DNA from: Bacteroidota bacterium
GTDB taxonomy: Bacteria; Bacteroidota; Bacteroidia; Bacteroidales; VadinHA17
Assembly (NCBI GenBank): GCA_029547705.1
Contig: JAKPOU010000041.1
Coordinates: 310,001-374,000, forward strand
Direction: 5' to 3'
Length of the DNA: 64,000 bases
Shown: one piece after another, positions 24,806 to 37,391 of the stretch
Numbering within the stretch: the first letter of the stretch is position 1
How the letters are laid out: the number at the start of each line of letters is the position of its first letter
Translations under genes and position numbers: made by a program
Notes under the pieces: generated by a model
What the model was told of the DNA's origin: nothing
The model's input: only the letters and a program-made list of their open reading frames with translations
Databases searched by the model: none

Positions 24806-27800
24806 ATGAAACTGATTGCAATCTTTTTTTCCCTGTTTGTTACCTCGTTGTCAGGTTCAGGGCATTATGACTGGCCGATGTGGAGATTTGACCACGGCCG
24901 TTCTGCTTCCACTCCTGAACAGCTGGCCGATAAGCTGTTCCTTCAGTGGCAGGTAAACTATTCTCCCAGGGAACCCGTATGGGATGATCCGCTGAATCAG
25001 AATCTGATGCAGTATGACAGGATCTTTGAGCCGATTGTGGCAGAGAATAAACTGTTCATCGGTTTCAATGACCAGGACAAGGTATCGGCCCTGGATATCA
25101 GTTCAGGGATGGAGTTATGGCACTTTTTTACTGACGGCCCGGTCCGTCTGCCCCTGGCCTACAGCAAAGGGAAGATTTTTTTTACTTCAGATGACGGATA
25201 CCTTTATTGTCTGAGCGCAGAATCAGGTCAGCTCCTGTGGAAAAAAATGCTTGCACCGGCGTCAAACAAGCTTTTGGGCAATAAGCGCTTCATCTCAATG
25301 TGGCCTGCCAGAGGCGGCATTGTAATACAGGATGATGTGATTTATACAGCTTCAAGCATTTTTCCGCTGATGGGTACATTTATTTATGCAATAAATGCCG
25401 CTGATGGTGAAATAATCTGGAAAAATGAAGGAACAGGAAGCAACTATATTCTCCAGCCCCATAATTCACCGGCATTTGCTGATATTGCACCGCAGGGATG
25501 CTTTACCATCAGCGGTGACAGGCTTCTTGTTGCGGGCGGCAGATCAGTTCCGGCCGGCTTCGATAAAGCCACGGGTGAAAAACTGTTTTATCAGCTCGCT
25601 CCAAGCGGCAAGACGGGTGGTGCTTTTACCTGCGCAAATGACAGGGTGTTTTTCAATCATCACCGGGAAAGGCTTACCGGCATGTATGATTCCGAAAATG
25701 GGAAAAAACTGATTCCGGTGGCCGGAGAATACCCGGTTATTGAGGGAGATAAAATCTATTTTTCAGGGAAAGACATTACATGTGTATTTCTTGATGAGTC
25801 AAAAAAGCTGGATACTCTCTGGACTATTGACGTTCCCGCGGGAACAGACCTGATAAAGGCGGGTAACTGTCTTTATGCAGCAGACAGTTCAGGAATATAT
25901 GCCGTAAGAATTTCCGGCAGCGGAAAACCGGAACTGGTCTGGAAATATTCCCCGGAAAAAGTCATTGACCGGCTGGTGGCCTCGAACGGCAAACTTATCG
26001 CTGTTGCAAATGATGGCACTATAATGGCTTTTGGTGATAAAGCTGCTGACAGGGTCCTTGTACATGAAAAAGCAGTGGCCGGACCCCGGAAGGTATCAGG
26101 TAAAATTCAGCGTCTCATCAGTTCTGCCGGAATCAGTGAAGGATATGCACTGGTTTTTGGTTCCGACATGGGACTTTTATCAGGCCTGATGAAAGAAACA
26201 AGCCTCAGAACAGTGGTTTATGAAAAGGACCGGCAGAAGGTGGAGGCCCTGAGGGAACATTTTAACAAACTCGGAATACATGCAGACCGTCTTATGTTCC
26301 TGGAATTTGAAAAGCCAAATCCTGTTCTTCCCAAATATTTTTCCTCACTTACGGTTATCAATGAGAACTTCGGTTTTGACAATGAGTTCCTGGAAATGAT
26401 TTACGAATCAACACGTCCCTACGGGGGGAAAATTCTTATCAGGACCGGCAGGACGGAAAGGGAAGAACTTGAAAGAACATTCCTGAGCCTTAATCTGTAC
26501 GGGGCTGTAATGAAATCTGACAGACTTTATTCCATGATAACCAGGGAAGGATCCCTTGAAGGTTCCTCGGCCTGGACTCATAATTACGGCGATATTGCCA
26601 ATACTGTCAAGTCGGATGACAAGCGGGTCAGAGCCCCTCTGGGAATATTATGGTTCGGAGGGAATTCAAACATGGATGTTTTGCCCAGGCACGGGCACGG
26701 ACCCGGGGAGCAGGTGGTTGACGGACGTCTTATTATAGAAAGCCTTAACGGTATAAGTGCCCGTGACGTTTATACCGGCAGGGTTCTCTGGAAAAGGGAT
26801 TTCAGGAGCCTGAAGGATGATTTCTGGCTGGTATATTATGATGAATCGTATGATGAGGAGAATCCGCTTGATCCAAAATACAACCAGGTGCATCTGCCCG
26901 GATCAAACGCACGGGGAACGAATTTCATTGCCACCAGGGAATATGTTTATGTTATTGAAGGAGATACCTGCCATTTTGTGGATATTAAAACAGGAGATCT
27001 GATAAAATCATTCACCACGGGCGATGAAGAGACAAAGGAACTGGGCTATATAGGTGTATATGAAGACCTTCTGATTCTGGGCAAAAACTTTTCCGAATAC
27101 ACGGGTCTGGAAAATGATTCAATGAAGATTAAAAATCCGAAGTTCACTGATTATAATCTTACTGCCAGCAATGAGCTTATAGTCGTGAACCGGTTTACGG
27201 GAGAAAGGATCTGGAGCATGGAAAGCAATCACGGATTTATTCATAATTCAGTAATAGCCGGTGATGATATTCTTTTTTGTCTTGACAAACTTCCCCAATA
27301 TGTTGAGACGAAGCTGAAAAGGAGGGGAGAGTCGCCCCCGGAGGGATCCAGGCTGCTTTATGTTGATATCAGAAGCGGCCGGATACTGAATGAGGTCACT
27401 GAAGATGTCTTCGGAACATGGCTGGGGTATTCCTCTGAACACAGGCTCCTACTTCAGGCAACACGGCCTTCAAGGGATATGCTTCATGGTGAGGAGGGAA
27501 ACAGGATGATAACATACAATGTCCTTACAGGGGAGAAGATATGGGATAAAGCACTGAAATATGCCAATCCGCCGATAATACATAATGATAAAATCTATAC
27601 CAACGGCGAAGGTTTTCACCTTTTGACCGGTGAAATCCTTTTTGAGAAGGACCCGCTTACACAGGAGGATCTTAAATGGAATTTCAAGCGTGAGTACGGA
27701 TGCGGTATTGTGGCGGCAAGTGAACATCTTCTGACCTTCCGGTCAGCTTCCGCCGGTTTCGTGAATCTCGACGTATTCGAAGGAACCGGCAGCCTTGGAG

Positions 27801-28495
27801 GGTGGAAGGCAGGCTGCTCCACCAACCTGATTGCCGCTGACGGAGTTCTTAATTCACCCGATTATACCCGGACCTGCCAGTGTCCCTACCAGAATCAGAC
27901 ATCCCTGGCACTGGTATATATGCCCTGGATGACATACTGGACAAACAGCAACTATAAATGGGATGGTAAAAAAATCAGGCAGTTCGGACTGAATCTCAAT
28001 GCACCCGGGGACAGAACTTCCGAAAACAATACACTGTGGATGGAATATCCCTTCGTTTCAGGTTCCGATCCGGGAATACCCGTTAGGATGGATACGCTGA
28101 ATTATTACCGGATACGAAAGGAGCCTATATCCGTTGTATCACGCGGTACGCCCTGGGTAAGTGCGAGTGCTCTGTGCGGAGTCAGGTCCTTTGAGCTTAC
28201 CATTGCAGATGATGAGGATGTGACTGAAACCTGGTACACGGTTAAACTGTATTTTTCAGAACTTGAGAATAAAAAACCGGGAGAGCGCGTGCTGAATATC
28301 AGCCTGCAGGGTGAGGAAGTACTGCGGAATTTTGATATTGTTTCAGAAGCAGGGAAAACAGACAAGGAAGTAATAAAATCATTTACAGGGATCAGGGCCG
28401 GAAGAACCCTGCGGCTGGACCTGATACCTCTTGAAGGAAATACAATCATTTCGGGTGTGGAAATGATTGAGGAAAAAACAGCCTGTAAATACTGA
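24806..28495 (+). CDS. Large PQQ-type propeller mosaic with methyltransferase-like insert
   Basis: Exported protein of 1229 residues. After a signal peptide, residues about 20-425 form a PQQ-like propeller (WPMWRFDHGRSASTP, VSALDISSGMELWHF, LYCLSAESGQLLWKK). Residues about 430-585 are a Rossmann-like segment (YALVFGSDMGLLSGLM, then VVYEKDRQKVEALREHF) that resembles an S-adenosylmethionine methyltransferase core. A second propeller follows (about 590-1080; GISARDVYTGRVLWKRDF, ELIVVNRFTGERIWSM). The last 110 residues look malectin-like (FELTIADDEDVTETWYTVKLYFSE). Whether PQQ or SAM is bound is unknown. It heads an operon with a lipoprotein, a one-TM protein and an FtsX-type transporter; the next gene starts five bases after its stop. 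Confidence 0.85.
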   Translation: MKLIAIFFSLFVTSLSGSGHYDWPMWRFDHGRSASTPEQLADKLFLQWQVNYSPREPVWDDPLNQNLMQYDRIFEPIVAENKLFIGFNDQDKVSALDISSGMELWHFFTDGPVRLPLAYSKGKIFFTSDDGYLYCLSAESGQLLWKKMLAPASNKLLGNKRFISMWPARGGIVIQDDVIYTASSIFPLMGTFIYAINAADGEIIWKNEGTGSNYILQPHNSPAFADIAPQGCFTISGDRLLVAGGRSVPAGFDKATGEKLFYQLAPSGKTGGAFTCANDRVFFNHHRERLTGMYDSENGKKLIPVAGEYPVIEGDKIYFSGKDITCVFLDESKKLDTLWTIDVPAGTDLIKAGNCLYAADSSGIYAVRISGSGKPELVWKYSPEKVIDRLVASNGKLIAVANDGTIMAFGDKAADRVLVHEKAVAGPRKVSGKIQRLISSAGISEGYALVFGSDMGLLSGLMKETSLRTVVYEKDRQKVEALREHFNKLGIHADRLMFLEFEKPNPVLPKYFSSLTVINENFGFDNEFLEMIYESTRPYGGKILIRTGRTEREELERTFLSLNLYGAVMKSDRLYSMITREGSLEGSSAWTHNYGDIANTVKSDDKRVRAPLGILWFGGNSNMDVLPRHGHGPGEQVVDGRLIIESLNGISARDVYTGRVLWKRDFRSLKDDFWLVYYDESYDEENPLDPKYNQVHLPGSNARGTNFIATREYVYVIEGDTCHFVDIKTGDLIKSFTTGDEETKELGYIGVYEDLLILGKNFSEYTGLENDSMKIKNPKFTDYNLTASNELIVVNRFTGERIWSMESNHGFIHNSVIAGDDILFCLDKLPQYVETKLKRRGESPPEGSRLLYVDIRSGRILNEVTEDVFGTWLGYSSEHRLLLQATRPSRDMLHGEEGNRMITYNVLTGEKIWDKALKYANPPIIHNDKIYTNGEGFHLLTGEILFEKDPLTQEDLKWNFKREYGCGIVAASEHLLTFRSASAGFVNLDVFEGTGSLGGWKAGCSTNLIAADGVLNSPDYTRTCQCPYQNQTSLALVYMPWMTYWTNSNYKWDGKKIRQFGLNLNAPGDRTSENNTLWMEYPFVSGSDPGIPVRMDTLNYYRIRKEPISVVSRGTPWVSASALCGVRSFELTIADDEDVTETWYTVKLYFSELENKKPGERVLNISLQGEEVLRNFDIVSEAGKTDKEVIKSFTGIRAGRTLRLDLIPLEGNTIISGVEMIEEKTACKY

Positions 28496-31577: not shown

Positions 31578-32291
31578 ATGGAAAACTACTGTGAAATGCT
31601 CATGGAGGATGTGAGGTTCAGAGAGGGACTCAACGCCTGTATCAATTGCGGAGTTTGTACGGCCATCTGTCCGGCTGCTGAATTCTATGACTATGATCCC
31701 AGAAAGATCGTCAGTCTGGTCCAGACGAAAAACAATGAAGAGATTGAAAAACTCATGAAGTCTGAAACCATCTGGTATTGCGGACAGTGCATGTCCTGCA
31801 AGACCAGGTGCCCCAGAGGCAATGTCCCGGCTTTTGTTGTAATGGCACTGAGGACATTGTCCATGAAGCTCGGGTTTTTTACCGAATCTGAAAAAGGCCG
31901 TCAGCAGTTTGCCATAAAAAGGACCGTTGGAGAAAATATCTTCAAGTATGGATACTGCGTGGCAAGCTATGCCGTCAGCCCGGAAATGCACCCCGAACAG
32001 GGACCAATCTGGGAATACCTGATTCAAAATGCTCCTGATGTTTACAAACGTCTGGGAGGGGGCCATTATGATGAGCTGGGAGCCGGGCCGCTGAGGAAAA
32101 TTCCCGAAGATGCAAAGGAGGAACTGATAAAAATTTTTGAAGTATCCGGAGGAACTGAGCTCTTTGATGACATTGAAAAGCATTCCAGGAAGAAAGCTGC
32201 TGACATGGGGCTTCAGTTTGATGACGAAGGTATTGATAATGAATATTTTATTGAGGTGTTTACCGCAAATAAAAAAGACCATCATGCTTAA
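31578..32291 (+). CDS. HdrC-like iron-sulfur protein
   Basis: Heterodisulfide reductase subunit C-like protein that passes electrons between an HdrA-type flavoprotein and an HdrB-type active-site subunit. Two [4Fe-4S] motifs are seen: CINCGVCTAICP (about residues 21-32) and CGQCMSCKTRCPRG (about residues 69-82). The C-terminal half (about residues 110-237) is an extension without Cys clusters that is longer than in methanogen HdrC. ATG at 31578 is preceded by AAAGGA; a GTG just upstream is possible. It is the first gene of the Hdr operon and sits 18 bases before hdrB. Confidence 0.88.
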   Translation: MENYCEMLMEDVRFREGLNACINCGVCTAICPAAEFYDYDPRKIVSLVQTKNNEEIEKLMKSETIWYCGQCMSCKTRCPRGNVPAFVVMALRTLSMKLGFFTESEKGRQQFAIKRTVGENIFKYGYCVASYAVSPEMHPEQGPIWEYLIQNAPDVYKRLGGGHYDELGAGPLRKIPEDAKEELIKIFEVSGGTELFDDIEKHSRKKAADMGLQFDDEGIDNEYFIEVFTANKKDHHA

Positions 32292-32309
32292 CCATATAAA
32301 CCCGGTAAA

Positions 32310-33371
32310 ATGAAATTAGAAGGTAAAAAAAGAATCTGGTCCGAATATCAGAAAGAGATAGCTGATGATCATTATTTTTATGTAAGATCATGTATAAGAC
32401 AAAGCTTTTTTCCGGGGTCAGAGCAGTTTTTCCTGCATTTCCTGGGGGATGTCCTCGGAAAGGATATATATGAGAATCCTTCCCACACCACATGTACCGG
32501 TATCGGATATCATTCCGATGTTGTTCCCCTTTCAACAATAATGACGGTCATTGCAAGGCATTATGCACTTATGAAGGAAGCAGGATACAAGCATATAGTA
32601 ATTTCCTGTGTTACATCCTTCGGTATTTACACCGAGATATTTGAAACCTGGAAGCATTTCCCCGAAGAACTGGAAAAGACCCGTGAATATCTTTATAAAG
32701 CAACGGGAAGAGAATTTGATCTTCCGGAAAGTATGACCCATACAAGTGATATAATTTATAAATTCCGCAATGAGATTGCCGACAGGGCAAAATACAGGCT
32801 TGTTAACCATGAAACTGGTGAACCTCTCAATGTTGTTGAACACATCGGCTGTCACTATTCAAAAATGTTTCCGAAGTATGGTGTAGGCGGGGCTGAATTT
32901 CCCAATGTGCTGGGAGGAATGATTGAAGCCTGGGGCGGAAATGTTGTTGATTATCCGGAAAGGAGACATTGCTGCGGATTTGGTTTCAGGCAGTACCTGG
33001 TTCAGGCCAACAGGGGTTATTCCCTTTCAAACACCGCCAAGAAATTCAGTTCCATGAAGCCCTATAAGCCCGACCTGGTTCTCACCAATTGTCCGGGATG
33101 CACGATGTTCATGGATAAATGGCAATATACCATCAGGGAAATGGAAGGCACTGTTTATGGGAACAACGGGGAATCAATACCGGTTCTGACCTATGAAGAA
33201 CTGGCCGGCCTGGTTATGGGCTACAATCCCTGGGATCTCGGTCTGCAGTATCACATGGTCCAGGCGGAGCCTTTGCTGAAAAAACTTGGAATTGAATATG
33301 ATCCCGCGGACAAGTTCAAAACGAAAGACGGCAGACAGATGCCGGTTCCTCAGAATCTGATCAATGCTTAA
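32310..33371 (+). CDS. HdrB-like subunit with degenerate N-terminal CCG motif
   Basis: HdrB family protein of 353 residues. In methanogens, HdrB carries two non-cubane [4Fe-4S] clusters, each held by C-x31-39-CC-x35-36-CxxC. Here the C-terminal motif is complete (Cys in HIGCHY, x39, CCGFG, x38, CPGC). In the N-terminal motif spacing is kept (C-x33-C-T-x36-C-x2-S), but two of five Cys are replaced: CC is CT and CxxC is CxxS. One cluster is therefore likely lost or altered. The final 80 residues add a tail (LGLQYHMVQAEPLLKKL). Its stop overlaps the hdrA start by eight bases. Confidence 0.85.
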   Translation: MKLEGKKRIWSEYQKEIADDHYFYVRSCIRQSFFPGSEQFFLHFLGDVLGKDIYENPSHTTCTGIGYHSDVVPLSTIMTVIARHYALMKEAGYKHIVISCVTSFGIYTEIFETWKHFPEELEKTREYLYKATGREFDLPESMTHTSDIIYKFRNEIADRAKYRLVNHETGEPLNVVEHIGCHYSKMFPKYGVGGAEFPNVLGGMIEAWGGNVVDYPERRHCCGFGFRQYLVQANRGYSLSNTAKKFSSMKPYKPDLVLTNCPGCTMFMDKWQYTIREMEGTVYGNNGESIPVLTYEELAGLVMGYNPWDLGLQYHMVQAEPLLKKLGIEYDPADKFKTKDGRQMPVPQNLINA

Positions 33372-34398
33372 GGCTGATAAAAGGGAAGTTGTTGTTATCG
33401 GAGGCGGGGCTGCCGGAATGGAGGCTGCGGGGCAACTTGCAAAAGCCGGTTGTATTGTCACGCTTCTTGAAAGGGAGTCCGTAACGGGCGGGCATGTAAA
33501 GAACTGGTATCATCTTTTTCCCGATTCCCGGAACAGTGATGAAGTTATTGAATACCTTGCCAGACAGGTAAATCACGATAATATTACTGTCCGTACAGGA
33601 GTAACTGCAGGTTCACTGGAAAAAAACGGAAAGTCAATCATCATAAATACATCCCGGGGAGAGAGAATCAGATCGGATGCGGTCATCGTGGCAACGGGCT
33701 TTGATCTTTTTGAAAGCCGGAGAAAGGAAGAATACGGGTATGGGATTTATGACAATGTGATAAGCTCGGCTGATCTGGAAATGATGTTCCGTAAGGATTC
33801 AATAAAAAGGCATGACGGTGAAACGCCGCGCAGAATAGGTTTTGTGCATTGTGTGGGATCACGCGATGCAAAGGTAAACAACCTGTATTGCTCCAAACTA
33901 TGCTGTGTGACGGCTGTAAAGCAGGCAATGGAAGTAAAAAAGCATATAGGGAATGCAAGTGTCTATTGCTTTTACATGGATATGAGAATGGGAGGGGCCT
34001 TGTACGAGGAACTTTACAAGGAATCACAGGAGAAATACGGAATAATATATATAAGGGGAAAAGTATCGGAAGTATCGGAGAACATAGATACCCGTCTTAT
34101 TGTAAAGGTTGAGGATACCCTTGCCGGACGGCCTCTGAGGATGGAACTGGACATGCTGGTTCTTATGGCAGGGATGGAAATGTCGGAAGGCGGAATGGGA
34201 CTTGCAGAATCTTCAGGTCTCAAAACCGGTGAAAACAGGTTTTTTGCACCTGCTGATCATCATTTCGGAACCAATAAGAGTACTGTAGCCGGGATTTTCT
34301 ATGCGGGAGCCTGTACTGCACCGATGAATATTACCGAAACAATATCTCATGCCCGGGCGGCTGTAGCTGATGTAATGGATTATTTCAGAAATATTTAA
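33364..34398 (+). CDS. Short HdrA-like flavoprotein
   Basis: FAD-binding subunit of 344 residues that corresponds to the thioredoxin-reductase-like core of HdrA (methanogen HdrA is about twice as long). The FAD motif is VVVIGGGAAGMEAAGQLAKAG, with VIVATGFD for the second half and a C-terminal IFYAGACTAPMNI. The HdrA-type cluster motif C-x12-C-x3-CC is present (HCVGSRD, then YCSKLCC). The extra ferredoxin domains of longer HdrA proteins are missing. It overlaps hdrB by eight bases and precedes the small ferredoxin-like gene by seven, which may supply the missing clusters. Confidence 0.87.
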   Translation: MLKADKREVVVIGGGAAGMEAAGQLAKAGCIVTLLERESVTGGHVKNWYHLFPDSRNSDEVIEYLARQVNHDNITVRTGVTAGSLEKNGKSIIINTSRGERIRSDAVIVATGFDLFESRRKEEYGYGIYDNVISSADLEMMFRKDSIKRHDGETPRRIGFVHCVGSRDAKVNNLYCSKLCCVTAVKQAMEVKKHIGNASVYCFYMDMRMGGALYEELYKESQEKYGIIYIRGKVSEVSENIDTRLIVKVEDTLAGRPLRMELDMLVLMAGMEMSEGGMGLAESSGLKTGENRFFAPADHHFGTNKSTVAGIFYAGACTAPMNITETISHARAAVADVMDYFRNI

Positions 34399-34405
34399 GT
34401 CTGAT

Positions 34406-34750
34406 ATGGGAGATTTTGGATTTACAGTACTGAAGGAACGACATATCAATTATGACGCCAATGACAAGAGCATTGCGGAATATATTGCTGAAAGGGAACC
34501 CAGTTTCAGAATATGCATTGAATGCGGGTGCTGCTCTGCAACCTGTACCACGGGAAATTTTATCAGGTTCAGTCTCAGGGAACTCCAGATATTGCTTAAA
34601 CGCGGTGAAAATGAGATTGTCAGGGAGCAGATTGACAGGTGTATGCTTTGCGGTAAATGCATACTTGTATGTCCGAGGGGAGTGAATACCAGGAATGTGA
34701 TCCTGCTTGCCAGGGAAGCATTCAGAAAATCGGTGGAAAATGAAATTTGA
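34406..34750 (+). CDS. Second HdrC-like ferredoxin
   Basis: Iron-sulfur protein of 114 residues with two [4Fe-4S] motifs, CIECGCCSATC (about residues 37-47) and CMLCGKCILVCP (about residues 75-86). The architecture and RELQILLKRGENEIV helix follow HdrC, without the C-terminal extension of the first HdrC in the operon. It starts seven bases after hdrA, and its end overlaps the membrane subunit start by 11 bases, so it probably links the flavoprotein to the membrane subunit. Confidence 0.85.
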   Translation: MGDFGFTVLKERHINYDANDKSIAEYIAEREPSFRICIECGCCSATCTTGNFIRFSLRELQILLKRGENEIVREQIDRCMLCGKCILVCPRGVNTRNVILLAREAFRKSVENEI

Positions 34751-36647
34751 TCCTTTTGTCATACCGTTTAACATTGGTCTCTTTTTCATACTGATCTATG
34801 CCGTTGTCCGGAGCATCATCTGGTTCAGGGCTCTTTCACGCCCGGACAAGCTGAGGCTGCAGCGGGGATTTTTCGGAAGGGCATTCGGACAAAGCCTGAA
34901 GGAGATATTCCTTGAAAGTCTTTTACACAGGAAAATCTTCAGGACAAACTTCTGGCTGGGTTATATGCATATGAGCCTGGCATTCGGGTGGTTCCTGCTC
35001 ATTTTATTCGGAACAATAGAAGCTGATATTTTCGGGGATTCACATCTGAATCCTCCCTATAAGGCCATATTTTTCAAATTCTTCAATCCGGTTCACGGAA
35101 TGAAGGGGATTGAAGCTGCCTATTCCTTCCTGATGGATCTTATTCTGGCTTTTATTCTTTCAGGACTGCTGCTTGCCATAATAAAAAGATTTTATTCCCG
35201 GGTTGTCGGAATGAGAAAAACAACAAAACTGAAGGTTCTTGACAAGATAGCCCTGGCCTCATTATGGATGATTTTTCCCAGCCGCCTTCTGGCAGAAAGC
35301 TTTACAAGCGGGGCCTATGGTAGCGGAAGCTTTCTTACCGGTTCCCTCGGATCATCACTGGCTTCATTTCTTCCGGCAATTGAAATGGCATATCCGTTCT
35401 GGTGGCTCTATTCGCTGTCTCTCGGTACTTTTTTCATCCTGCTTCCGCTTACAAGGTATATGCATATACCTACGGAATTATTCCTGATTTTTGCCAGGAA
35501 CTCCGGGATCAGAACCGGCGATCAGCCGGATGCATTTATGGAAATGCAGATCTATTCATGTTCCTCATGCGGAATATGCATTGATGCCTGCCAGCTTAAC
35601 TTCTCCACAGGAATTACCAATATCCAGGCGGCCTATCTGCTCAAGGGGCTAAGAAATGATGAGGACGTTCGTGATATAGCCTACAACTGCCTGATGTGCG
35701 GCCGTTGTGATGTAAAATGTCCGGTGGGAATTGAACTGACACCCGTAAGAATGATTGCCCGGCGGTCACAGGAAACTGAAACGAAGGAAAAAAACGGGAT
35801 CTGGAAAAAATACTTCCCTGACCGCCATCATCCTGCCTCCTCAAAACAAAGTAATGAGCCGTCGTACAGCTGGCTGCCGGAGGCAGAAGCGCCGAAAGCC
35901 GATATTGTTTATTATGCCGGCTGCATGACACATCTAACGCCGGCCATTAAAAATGCAATGGTTAAGATTCTGGATGCTTCCGGTCTGAAATATGATTTCA
36001 TCGACAGGGACGGAGGGGTTTGCTGCGGACGCCCTCTGATGCTTGCCGGCCAGGATAAGGAAGCCAGGGAGCTTATTAACTATAATTCACAGGCTATCCT
36101 GAAGTCGGGAGCAACAACCCTTGTCACTTCCTGCCCGATATGCTACAAGGTTTTCAGGGAAAGCTACTACCTTAACGTGGAGGTATTACATCACACCCAG
36201 TTTATCCGGAGACTGATACTGAAAGGAACGATCAGGCTTAATTTCCTGAGAAAAACGGTAACCTATCATACACCATGCGAACTGGGGAGAAGATCGGGTA
36301 TTTATGATGATCCCAGGCTTGTTCTCATGCATGTTGCACGTTTCCAGAAAACCGGTTTTGATGATGAAAACTCCCTGTGCTGTGGTGGCAGCCTTGGAAA
36401 TACGAGGATAAGTCAGGAACAGAAAAATAAAATAGCCAGTGATGCGGCATATGAATTGACAAAGACTGATCCGGATATTCTTGCAACTGCCTGCCCGCTC
36501 TGCAAGAAAACTTTTGCAGGAGTATCTGATACACCTGTCGCGGATATTGCCGAGATTGTTGCTGAAGCTCTTTCCCTGCCCGTTCCCCTGGCTGACAATG
36601 AGGAAAGAAAAACCTTGAAACAGAGGGAAACTGCAAATATCTTATGA
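34740..36647 (+). CDS. Membrane HdrE/HdrD-like fusion (NarI-type plus CCG domains)
   Basis: Protein of 635 residues joining a membrane electron-transfer module to an HdrD-like module. Residues about 1-260 hold five or so hydrophobic helices with His residues, as in NarI/HdrE cytochrome b proteins that contact quinone or methanophenazine. Two [4Fe-4S] motifs follow (CSSCGICIDAC and CLMCGRCDVKCPVG). The C-terminal half has two complete CCG motifs, ending in VCCGRP with CPICYK, and LCCGGS with CPLCKK. ATG at 34740 is chosen; the frame is open 11 codons earlier. It is the last gene of the Hdr operon and gives the complex a membrane anchor and a link to the quinone pool. Confidence 0.88.
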   Translation: MKFDPFVIPFNIGLFFILIYAVVRSIIWFRALSRPDKLRLQRGFFGRAFGQSLKEIFLESLLHRKIFRTNFWLGYMHMSLAFGWFLLILFGTIEADIFGDSHLNPPYKAIFFKFFNPVHGMKGIEAAYSFLMDLILAFILSGLLLAIIKRFYSRVVGMRKTTKLKVLDKIALASLWMIFPSRLLAESFTSGAYGSGSFLTGSLGSSLASFLPAIEMAYPFWWLYSLSLGTFFILLPLTRYMHIPTELFLIFARNSGIRTGDQPDAFMEMQIYSCSSCGICIDACQLNFSTGITNIQAAYLLKGLRNDEDVRDIAYNCLMCGRCDVKCPVGIELTPVRMIARRSQETETKEKNGIWKKYFPDRHHPASSKQSNEPSYSWLPEAEAPKADIVYYAGCMTHLTPAIKNAMVKILDASGLKYDFIDRDGGVCCGRPLMLAGQDKEARELINYNSQAILKSGATTLVTSCPICYKVFRESYYLNVEVLHHTQFIRRLILKGTIRLNFLRKTVTYHTPCELGRRSGIYDDPRLVLMHVARFQKTGFDDENSLCCGGSLGNTRISQEQKNKIASDAAYELTKTDPDILATACPLCKKTFAGVSDTPVADIAEIVAEALSLPVPLADNEERKTLKQRETANIL

Positions 36648-36791
36648 AAAGGTAATAGCCTGATCTTCATTTTCCATCACCTCAATTGAACATTTCTGAT
36701 CCGGAAAATGTTTTCAATTAAAATTATTTCCTGCACAATGGAATGATTTTTGTTACGTTTTACTTGCAAACTGATTTTTTCAACATTTAAC

Positions 36792-37346
36792 ATGAGAAGA
36801 GGATTTTTTTATTTACCGGCGATTGTATTTGTTTTTGCCATTATCGCTTCATGTACCGGTTCAGGCAAAAGACCAGATTCCACCAATGGTCTCAGCATAA
36901 ATAAAATATGGCAGCAGCCGGATGGAACCATATCATTGCATCTTGACAAGGCGGATTGTTACAGTGACGTGGCAAATCCATCAGAGAATACTGCCGAATG
37001 GGATGTGGTGGTTTCCAGATCCGGACGGTACAATGTCTGGCTGTCAAGTGCAACCCTGGACACCACCGACCTTAACTACAAAAACAAGGTTATGATAAGT
37101 GTTCAGGATACGCGTATTGAAGGACTGCCGGAATGTGACAGGATAGTCAGGAATGCGGAAGATGTTGCATATCCGTATTACAGGGCGGATTCATTTATCG
37201 GTTCAATGTATATAAAGGACACAGGAGAATTTCAGATACAGGTGATAAGCGAACAGATCCTGCCTAAGGAAAAATTTAATGGAGATGTTTCCGGCGAGGA
37301 CTTGTCAAAGCTCCTTTCGGTCTCATTCACACCTGTCAAAAGATAA
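36792..37346 (+). CDS. Hypothetical lipoprotein
   Basis: Lipoprotein of 184 residues; the signal peptide ends in FAIIASC. The mature part is beta-rich (GTISLHLDKADCYSD, GRYNVWLSSATLDTTD) and could be a carbohydrate-binding-like sandwich, but I recognise no family. It follows the Hdr operon by 144 bases and ends at a strong terminator. The in-frame start 14 codons upstream lacks a signal peptide, so ATG at 36792 is preferred. Confidence 0.65.
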   Translation: MRRGFFYLPAIVFVFAIIASCTGSGKRPDSTNGLSINKIWQQPDGTISLHLDKADCYSDVANPSENTAEWDVVVSRSGRYNVWLSSATLDTTDLNYKNKVMISVQDTRIEGLPECDRIVRNAEDVAYPYYRADSFIGSMYIKDTGEFQIQVISEQILPKEKFNGDVSGEDLSKLLSVSFTPVKR

Positions 37347-37365
37347 AAGGCATTCTTACTGATGA

Positions 37366-37391
37366 GGGCTGCGGTTTGCAGCCCTTTTTTT
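37366..37391 (+). terminator. Rho-independent terminator
   Basis: A 7-bp GC-rich stem GGGCTGC/GCAGCCC with a five-base loop is followed by seven T. It lies 19 bases after the lipoprotein stop and ends that transcript; the convergent purL transcript ends just beyond it. Confidence 0.9.

Follow-up and report, generated by a model that had tools for sequence, protein, structure and literature searches.

A conserved five-gene operon of Bacteroidales that looks like a heterodisulfide reductase with a fused membrane subunit

What could a compact set of five genes resembling heterodisulfide reductase (Hdr) subunits, the last of which encodes a fused membrane protein, be doing in a bacterium of the order Bacteroidales? 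The genes occupy positions 31578-36647 of a stretch of 64,000 nucleotides (the window; GenBank assembly GCA_029547705.1, contig JAKPOU010000041.1, positions 310,001 to 374,000 of the forward strand), which is part of a Bacteroidota genome of 3.78 Mb in 70 contigs, 92.9% complete. A preliminary description had read them as HdrC, HdrB, a short flavoprotein HdrA, a second HdrC and a membrane fusion protein; we found all five reading frames intact and in the places it gave, with matches to Hdr families and an HdrA that is indeed short (Table 1). Neighboring genes are tightly spaced, with gaps of 18 bases (C1/B) and 7 bases (A/C2) and overlaps of 8 (B/A) and 11 bases (C2/M); the listed open reading frame (ORF) of M begins at a TTG upstream of the ATG used here.

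Table 1. Positions in the window of the five operon genes and of two features downstream (aa, amino acids).
Feature	Position	Strand	Size and description
HdrC1 (C1)	31578..32291	+	237 aa; soluble electron carrier, two [4Fe-4S] sites
HdrB1 (B)	32310..33371	+	353 aa; CCG protein
HdrA (A)	33364..34398	+	344 aa; short FAD/[4Fe-4S] flavoprotein without ferredoxin domains
HdrC2 (C2)	34406..34750	+	114 aa; small di-[4Fe-4S] carrier
M	34740..36647	+	635 aa from ATG; membrane helices, di-[4Fe-4S] domain, two CCG sites
Small ORF	36750..37346	+	198 aa; lipoprotein-like by eye, no Pfam match; retained downstream solely in nearer relatives
Terminator-like hairpin	37364..37386	+	10 pairs, T tail; consensus match only

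The five genes look like an Hdr-type operon, kin of the methanogen heterodisulfide reductases. The best NCBIfam models were HdrC for HdrC1 (E 5e-26) and HdrC2 (E 7e-8), HdrB for HdrB1 (E 2e-40) and HdrA2 for HdrA (E 6e-72), all four scores being well below the curated cut-offs of those models. The Pfam CCG and 4Fe-4S domains scored above cut-off, with two CCG stretches in M (E 1e-24).

The arrangement, whose comparison across Bacteroidota the preliminary description had proposed, recurs widely. A collection scan, for which a profile was built from eight HdrA rows, yielded at least 559 relatives, of which the best 80 were kept, a choice that favors near relatives; all 80 loci carry Bacteroidota titles. 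The exact order C1-B-A-C2-M was observed in 68 of them, which is far beyond chance, while the other 12 comprise six loci that lack a gene because the contig ends, four with a split frame and two without a called C2. The operon is present in Odoribacter laneus YIT 12061 and Butyricimonas sp. Marseille-P3923. In an independent sample of 198 genomes of the order, HdrA matched at E 1e-45 in 71 genomes, and six of these were left out as they matched only long frames. The short HdrA was thus found in 65 genomes (39-100% identity, 45 family codes), and 57 of the 65 (56 of the 64 fetched and this genome) have the exact five-gene order; one of these, G059, carries further HdrA-like and HdrC-like matches upstream. 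In three more the locus is truncated where the contig ends (G047, G392, G468), and two members of one family (G410, locus L185; G512, locus L222) possess all five genes in the order C1-C2-M-B-A. Among 44 genomes with an HdrB match, two (G016, G019) gave weak matches only. In a phylum sample (296 genomes, few of this order), the matches listed included other short HdrA forms only in G064 and G146 (38-39%), and a scan of viral contigs for HdrA returned 25 pattern stretches and no relatives. No gene outside the operon recurs in every one of 31 compared loci (16 deeper, four further, ten nearer and the window). The operon is real and widely kept; what is new is its arrangement and, in M, the pairing of intact Hdr-type sites with a scaffold like that of EtfD (below), every building block being already known.

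The membrane protein was modeled with AlphaFold2 (26 rows, mean predicted local distance difference test score 85.4), and the model has five long helices in its membrane portion. Foldseek placed EtfD (9ojn) first (E 7e-18, query TM-score, TMq, 0.65), followed by LutA and methanogen HdrB; the superposition on EtfD is loose (root-mean-square deviation 10.6 over 765 columns), and EtfD is also the best PDB sequence match of M. Residues were counted in 73 rows (the window and 72 loci), with ORFs under 85% of the reference length (for M, under 560 aa) excluded here and in the other counts. Cysteines 395, 428, 429, 465, 468, 547 and 548 are invariant, C513 is kept in 72/73 rows (one Ser), and C585 and C588 also in 72/73 (one gap). 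By this residue alignment M retains all ten Hdr-type cysteines, that is, two complete predicted CCG sites of the Hdr type, in agreement with the HdrD-type fusion proposed at the outset. Histidines H77 and H242 are present in 73/73 rows and align with His residues of the host's own EMO protein; by analogy, they may be ligands of a haem b, being matched by fold and position only to His78 and His241, which hold the single haem b of EtfD according to PMC13083937. PMC8805022 describes the Syntrophus EMO as diheme.

In the soluble subunits, the eight cysteines for two [4Fe-4S] clusters are invariant across 78 rows in HdrC1, as is Cys127, and reach at least 99% conservation over 78 rows in HdrC2. The two noncubane sites of HdrB1 have fared differently. 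The C-terminal site is complete (C181, C221, C222, C261, C264) and kept across 77 rows, apart from one row with gaps at two of the positions, whereas the N-terminal site is half lost (C28, T61, C62, C100, S103), with T/S61 and S103 replacing two cysteines in 77/77 rows; 5odc and 9sfi have Cys at the corresponding positions.

We suggest, with middling confidence, that the five proteins assemble into a single membrane-bound complex, which would exchange electrons between a cytoplasmic thiol/disulfide or sulfane-sulfur substrate and the quinone pool. In such a complex, an HdrA core containing flavin adenine dinucleotide (FAD) would link two arms, HdrC1-HdrB1 and HdrC2-M, and M would be an HdrD-type double noncubane iron-sulfur unit fused to cytochrome b, hence a fused HdrED. 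Electrons might pass from HdrB1 through HdrC1, the FAD of HdrA and HdrC2 to M, and there from the CCG clusters via two cubanes and haem b to quinone; alternatively, the substrate could enter at the double site of M. The potential of menaquinone is near -75 mV and those of small disulfides are lower, so that quinone reduction would run downhill and disulfide reduction by quinol would not; the former would be the easier direction. The membrane arm would resemble methanogen HdrDE in combining a membrane cytochrome b with an HdrD-type double CCG unit, and differs from it in that M is a single polypeptide whose gene is linked to those of HdrA, HdrB1 and two HdrC proteins. We know of no coenzyme M or coenzyme B in these bacteria.

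If the same parts ran in reverse, quinol together with a proton gradient, or flavin-based bifurcation at HdrA, would reduce a disulfide or a low-potential acceptor at HdrB1. One FAD subunit with two arms and the complete HdrD-type sites in M would suit this, and the bifurcating HdrA of methanogens is a relative: partial matches to methanogen chains of 643-671 aa (E 2e-58 to 5e-52) equal or exceed the match, over nearly the full length, to chain 6tjr (E 4e-53), which we take to be sHdrA of Hyphomicrobium denitrificans. However, HdrA here lacks the ferredoxin domains of the bifurcating enzyme, no ferredoxin partner is kept beside the operon, and electron transfer from menaquinol to a disulfide would be uphill; we consider reverse running unlikely.

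Another possibility is that M is an EMO/EtfD-like wire and that HdrA-HdrB1 substitutes for ETF in serving some dehydrogenase, without any sulfur chemistry. It draws on EtfD being the best match of M in both sequence and fold, and on the di-cluster domain and aligned histidines that M has in common with the host EMO; M and EtfD/EMO are alike in fold class, in the five membrane helices and in the pairing of a di-cluster domain with two CCG domains. The two differ at the sites themselves. PMC13083937 reports that Thr539 of EtfD, in place of an Hdr cysteine, makes cluster D1 a linear [3Fe-4S], and that His583 caps cluster D2, rendering it non-catalytic in the authors' view. M has Cys429 and Ile467 in 73/73 rows instead of this Thr and His. 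The host's EMO (contig C11, in a cluster EtfB-EtfA-EMO-acyl-CoA dehydrogenase), 25% identical to M, has both EtfD-type residues; the genome therefore encodes both forms, M being the more Hdr-like of the two. Neither an ETF gene (EtfAB) nor a dehydrogenase is kept beside the operon in the compared loci. We consider a wire of this kind unlikely.

The position of the operon among known Hdr systems was assessed with an HdrA tree of 234 core columns that included the window, 19 of the best 80 loci and references; the groups used in the approximately unbiased (AU) test (methanogen, sHdr, Qmo and FlpD/QmoC-like) were named after the tree had been seen. As the preliminary description had held, the operon is neither a methanogen HdrABC nor a Qmo complex. 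Grouping with methanogen HdrA was rejected (AU p 8e-5), and methanogen HdrABC also differs in its HdrA of about 650 aa with ferredoxin domains and in an HdrB with two complete noncubane sites. Grouping with the Qmo proteins of L144, a sat-aprBA-qmoABC cluster (Sat, AprB, AprA and QmoC above cut-offs), was rejected as well (QmoA p 0.0007, QmoB p 0.0006, both p 0.015). QmoABC is similar to the operon in its Hdr-derived flavoproteins and quinone-facing membrane subunit, but the operon has a single short HdrA rather than QmoA and QmoB. The QmoC model gave HdrC1 only 47 bits against a cut-off of 300, and AprA (TIGR02061; 950 bits on L144, above cut-off in 0/14 control genomes) had no match in the 92.9% complete host genome. 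Grouping with the HdrA-like rows of 431-433 aa from two other loci, L043 and L031, was rejected too (p 0.0004). We had considered the HdrA-like rows of these two loci as QmoA/QmoB; their best match is HdrA2 and the QmoC-like neighbor reaches 137-142 bits, below the cut-off of 300, so that they are treated only as FlpD/QmoC-like clusters. The HdrB tree likewise drew on the window, 19 of the best 80 loci and references, and it carries long-branch warnings; in it, HdrB of L031, L038 and L040 groups with the Bacteroidales rows.

In the free HdrA tree the Bacteroidales rows join a row from Picosynechococcus (support 95/76, not starred), and 6tjr is set apart together with the loci L138 and L139 (100/98). 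The nearest homologues found outside Bacteroidota are on a plasmid of Picosynechococcus sp. PCC 7003 (HdrC1 48%, HdrB1 42%, HdrA 43%). There (L137; NZ_CP016476.1, 185219-190959) an operon C1-B1-A-C2-B2 is followed by a homologue of sulfide:quinone reductase (3hyv, E 2e-98). A quinone-linked type of protein follows in this cluster also, but a soluble HdrB2 and a separate protein similar to sulfide:quinone reductase take the place of the fused M. The genes hdrA2, hdrB2 and hdrC2 are reported in PMC8002359 from a cyanobacterium whose photosynthesis continues in the presence of sulfide. Among Bacteroidota, the accessible part of PMC11129491 describes a complete heterodisulfide reductase system, which may relieve sulfide toxicity, in Black Sea isolates (Lentimicrobiales S6 and L6, Ancylomarina euxinus, Labilibaculum euxinus), and gives neither its gene order nor a membrane subunit. 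Because of the sulfide:quinone reductase homologue behind the cyanobacterial operon and the sulfidic habitat of these isolates, sulfane sulfur would be a reasonable guess for the substrate of the proposed complex.

The tree did not place the operon squarely in Qmo or in a described Hdr group, and it may be kin to the sulfur-oxidizing Hdr (sHdr); this likeness, in the C1-B1-A core and the short HdrA, was not named in the preliminary description. In PMC11582611, sHdr type I is shdrC1B1AHC2B2 and type II is shdrC1B1AHB3 with etfAB; the phylum includes a type II-like cluster C1-B1-A-B3-EtfBA-EMO (L139, genome G146; sHdrH was not looked for). If the operon encoded a true sHdr, carrier-bound sulfur would be oxidized to sulfite, with M replacing HdrB2/B3 and EMO. 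The order C1-B1-A and a short HdrA that 6tjr matches along nearly its whole length are common to both. So is the half-lost first site of HdrB1, found in the B1 of Picosynechococcus, in the type II-like B1 of L138/L139 and in the HdrB of an Acidithiobacillus plasmid; methanogen HdrB and Picosynechococcus B2 have all ten site cysteines. In addition, although HdrA branches away from 6tjr and the type II-like rows in the free tree, placing Bacteroidales, cyanobacterial and sHdr rows in one clade was not rejected (p 0.415; p 0.145 without the cyanobacterial row), and PMC11129491 reads the Black Sea system, from sulfidic water, as sulfur oxidation. Against this, C2-M stands behind HdrA with nothing between HdrA and C2, in the place of sHdrH; the cluster has no HdrB2/B3 or EtfAB and has its own HdrED-like membrane subunit. 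Position 261 of HdrB1 is Cys in the operon group and in Picosynechococcus B1, but Asp in L138, L139 and the Acidithiobacillus plasmid HdrB. The hosts, moreover, are largely fermenting anaerobes. The lipoate protein, called indispensable to sHdr in a review (PMC9774590), is of the GCV_H (LbpA) family, which had no match in the host genome or in G039, G053, G377 and G451, all five of which carry the operon. As 20 of the 23 GCV_H-negative genomes are named, operon genomes without GCV_H number at least five and further ones may exist. We consider a true sHdr very unlikely.

Sequence, fold and trees establish the operon and its conservation, the residues for cofactor binding, the fold class of M and the place of HdrA in the tree, whereas assembly into a single complex, the haem and quinone link, the direction of transfer and a sulfur substrate are inferred. 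Several observations weigh against the membrane-bound complex. H77/H242 are matched to His78/His241 of EtfD by fold and position, the aligned EtfD fragment spanning 407-737, and the membrane part of M has only three invariant histidines (H63, H77, H242). Three of the 65 short-HdrA genomes hold partial sets with no contig end to account for it, B-A only in G036 and G448 and A-C2-M only in G419. For the second HdrA-like protein (641-650 aa) of the FlpD/QmoC-like clusters L043/L031, a grouping with HdrA was not rejected (p 0.224), the long-branch warnings reduce the value of the HdrB tree, and the cyanobacterial comparison concerns one plasmid whose HdrA join is not starred. The quinone exchange claimed in the preliminary description agrees with the EtfD-like fold of M; still, MenA (TIGR00751, detected in 9/14 control genomes, Bacteroides ihuae included) was not found in the 92.9% complete host genome, in which the futalosine route was not searched, so that the quinone pool of the host is unproven. 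As neither GCV_H nor DsrC matched in the host, it offers none of the protein substrates known for Hdr systems, and no linked substrate enzyme is kept in deep lineages. The wider count of the operon speaks for the complex; the earlier mention in print and the unrejected grouping weigh against it.

Possible partners were also sought elsewhere in the genomes. DsrC occurs in 27/65 short-HdrA genomes versus 32/133 others (Fisher p 0.014, uncorrected for relatedness); it was rejected as a required substrate, not being found in 38/65 short-HdrA genomes, the host included. For FlpD the counts are 27/65 versus 42/133 (p 0.20). A PF03099-family gene adjoins the operon in L132 (Pfam-tested) and in L125, L128 and L130 (BLAST clustering). 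The lipoate link that it might have indicated was dropped, as the family occurs in 191/198 genomes, where many members are probably biotin ligases, and GCV_H was not found in the host. PF01507 likewise had no match in the host genome. The statement that no FlpD or AprAB gene is nearby stands for the neighborhood and, for AprA, for the whole genome; the host does, however, have FlpD elsewhere, adjoined by two HdrA-like genes and a QmoC-like gene.

Related clusters were observed in other contexts. In the host genome, at G000:C6:126000-142000 (L043), FlpD, two HdrA-like genes (431 and 650 aa), a small ORF and a QmoC-like gene (136-137 bits under the QmoC model, cut-off 300) are adjoined by two DsrE-family genes. 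L031 and L040, from the same genus, carry an additional HdrC1-HdrB1 pair, with identities of about 52% and 61-62% to that of the window. It lies behind genes for FlpD, two HdrA-like proteins and a QmoC-like protein, in the company of DUF134, FeMo-Co-type and OsmC-type genes (by Pfam in L031, by clustering in L040). A third context is L038, where HdrC1-HdrB1 is followed by a pyridine-nucleotide oxidoreductase, a CGGC gene, a ParA/ferredoxin-type ATPase, DUF1573 and MauE, with a second ParA/ferredoxin-type ATPase by clustering. The A. ferrooxidans plasmid stretch L161 (NZ_CP040512.1) has an HdrB1-like gene near GcvH and thioredoxin genes and no annotated HdrA. Directly behind M, genes for pyridoxal phosphate enzymes occur in two distant lineages only (L125:10179-11087, PALP; L028:11974-13155, Cys_Met_Meta_PP), starting 12 and 11 bases past M, respectively; they are not used as support.

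Downstream of the operon in the window, the 198-aa ORF, probably outside the complex, and a long convergent ORF (purL-like by eye) follow M in nearer relatives only. The hairpin lies between these two ORFs; the stretch contains eight terminator-consensus sites versus 6.0 expected. Upstream, at 24806-28495, a 1229-aa protein with PQQ-propeller and malectin domain matches precedes an ABC transporter pair (named by eye).

Within open-licence PMC texts, as far as they were accessible, we found no other description of this operon. M combines a membrane scaffold like that of EtfD with intact sites of the Hdr type, and the compact five-gene system occurs in cultured gut genera and is testable there. 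On the broadest interpretation, which we find distinctly doubtful, the operon would encode a respiratory complex that conserves energy and is widespread among anaerobic Bacteroidales, including commensals of the gut. A single flavin would join the HdrB1 arm and the quinone-linked HdrED arm, oxidation of a thiol or persulfide carrier would supply quinone with electrons, and flavin-based confurcation or bifurcation might take place between the arms.

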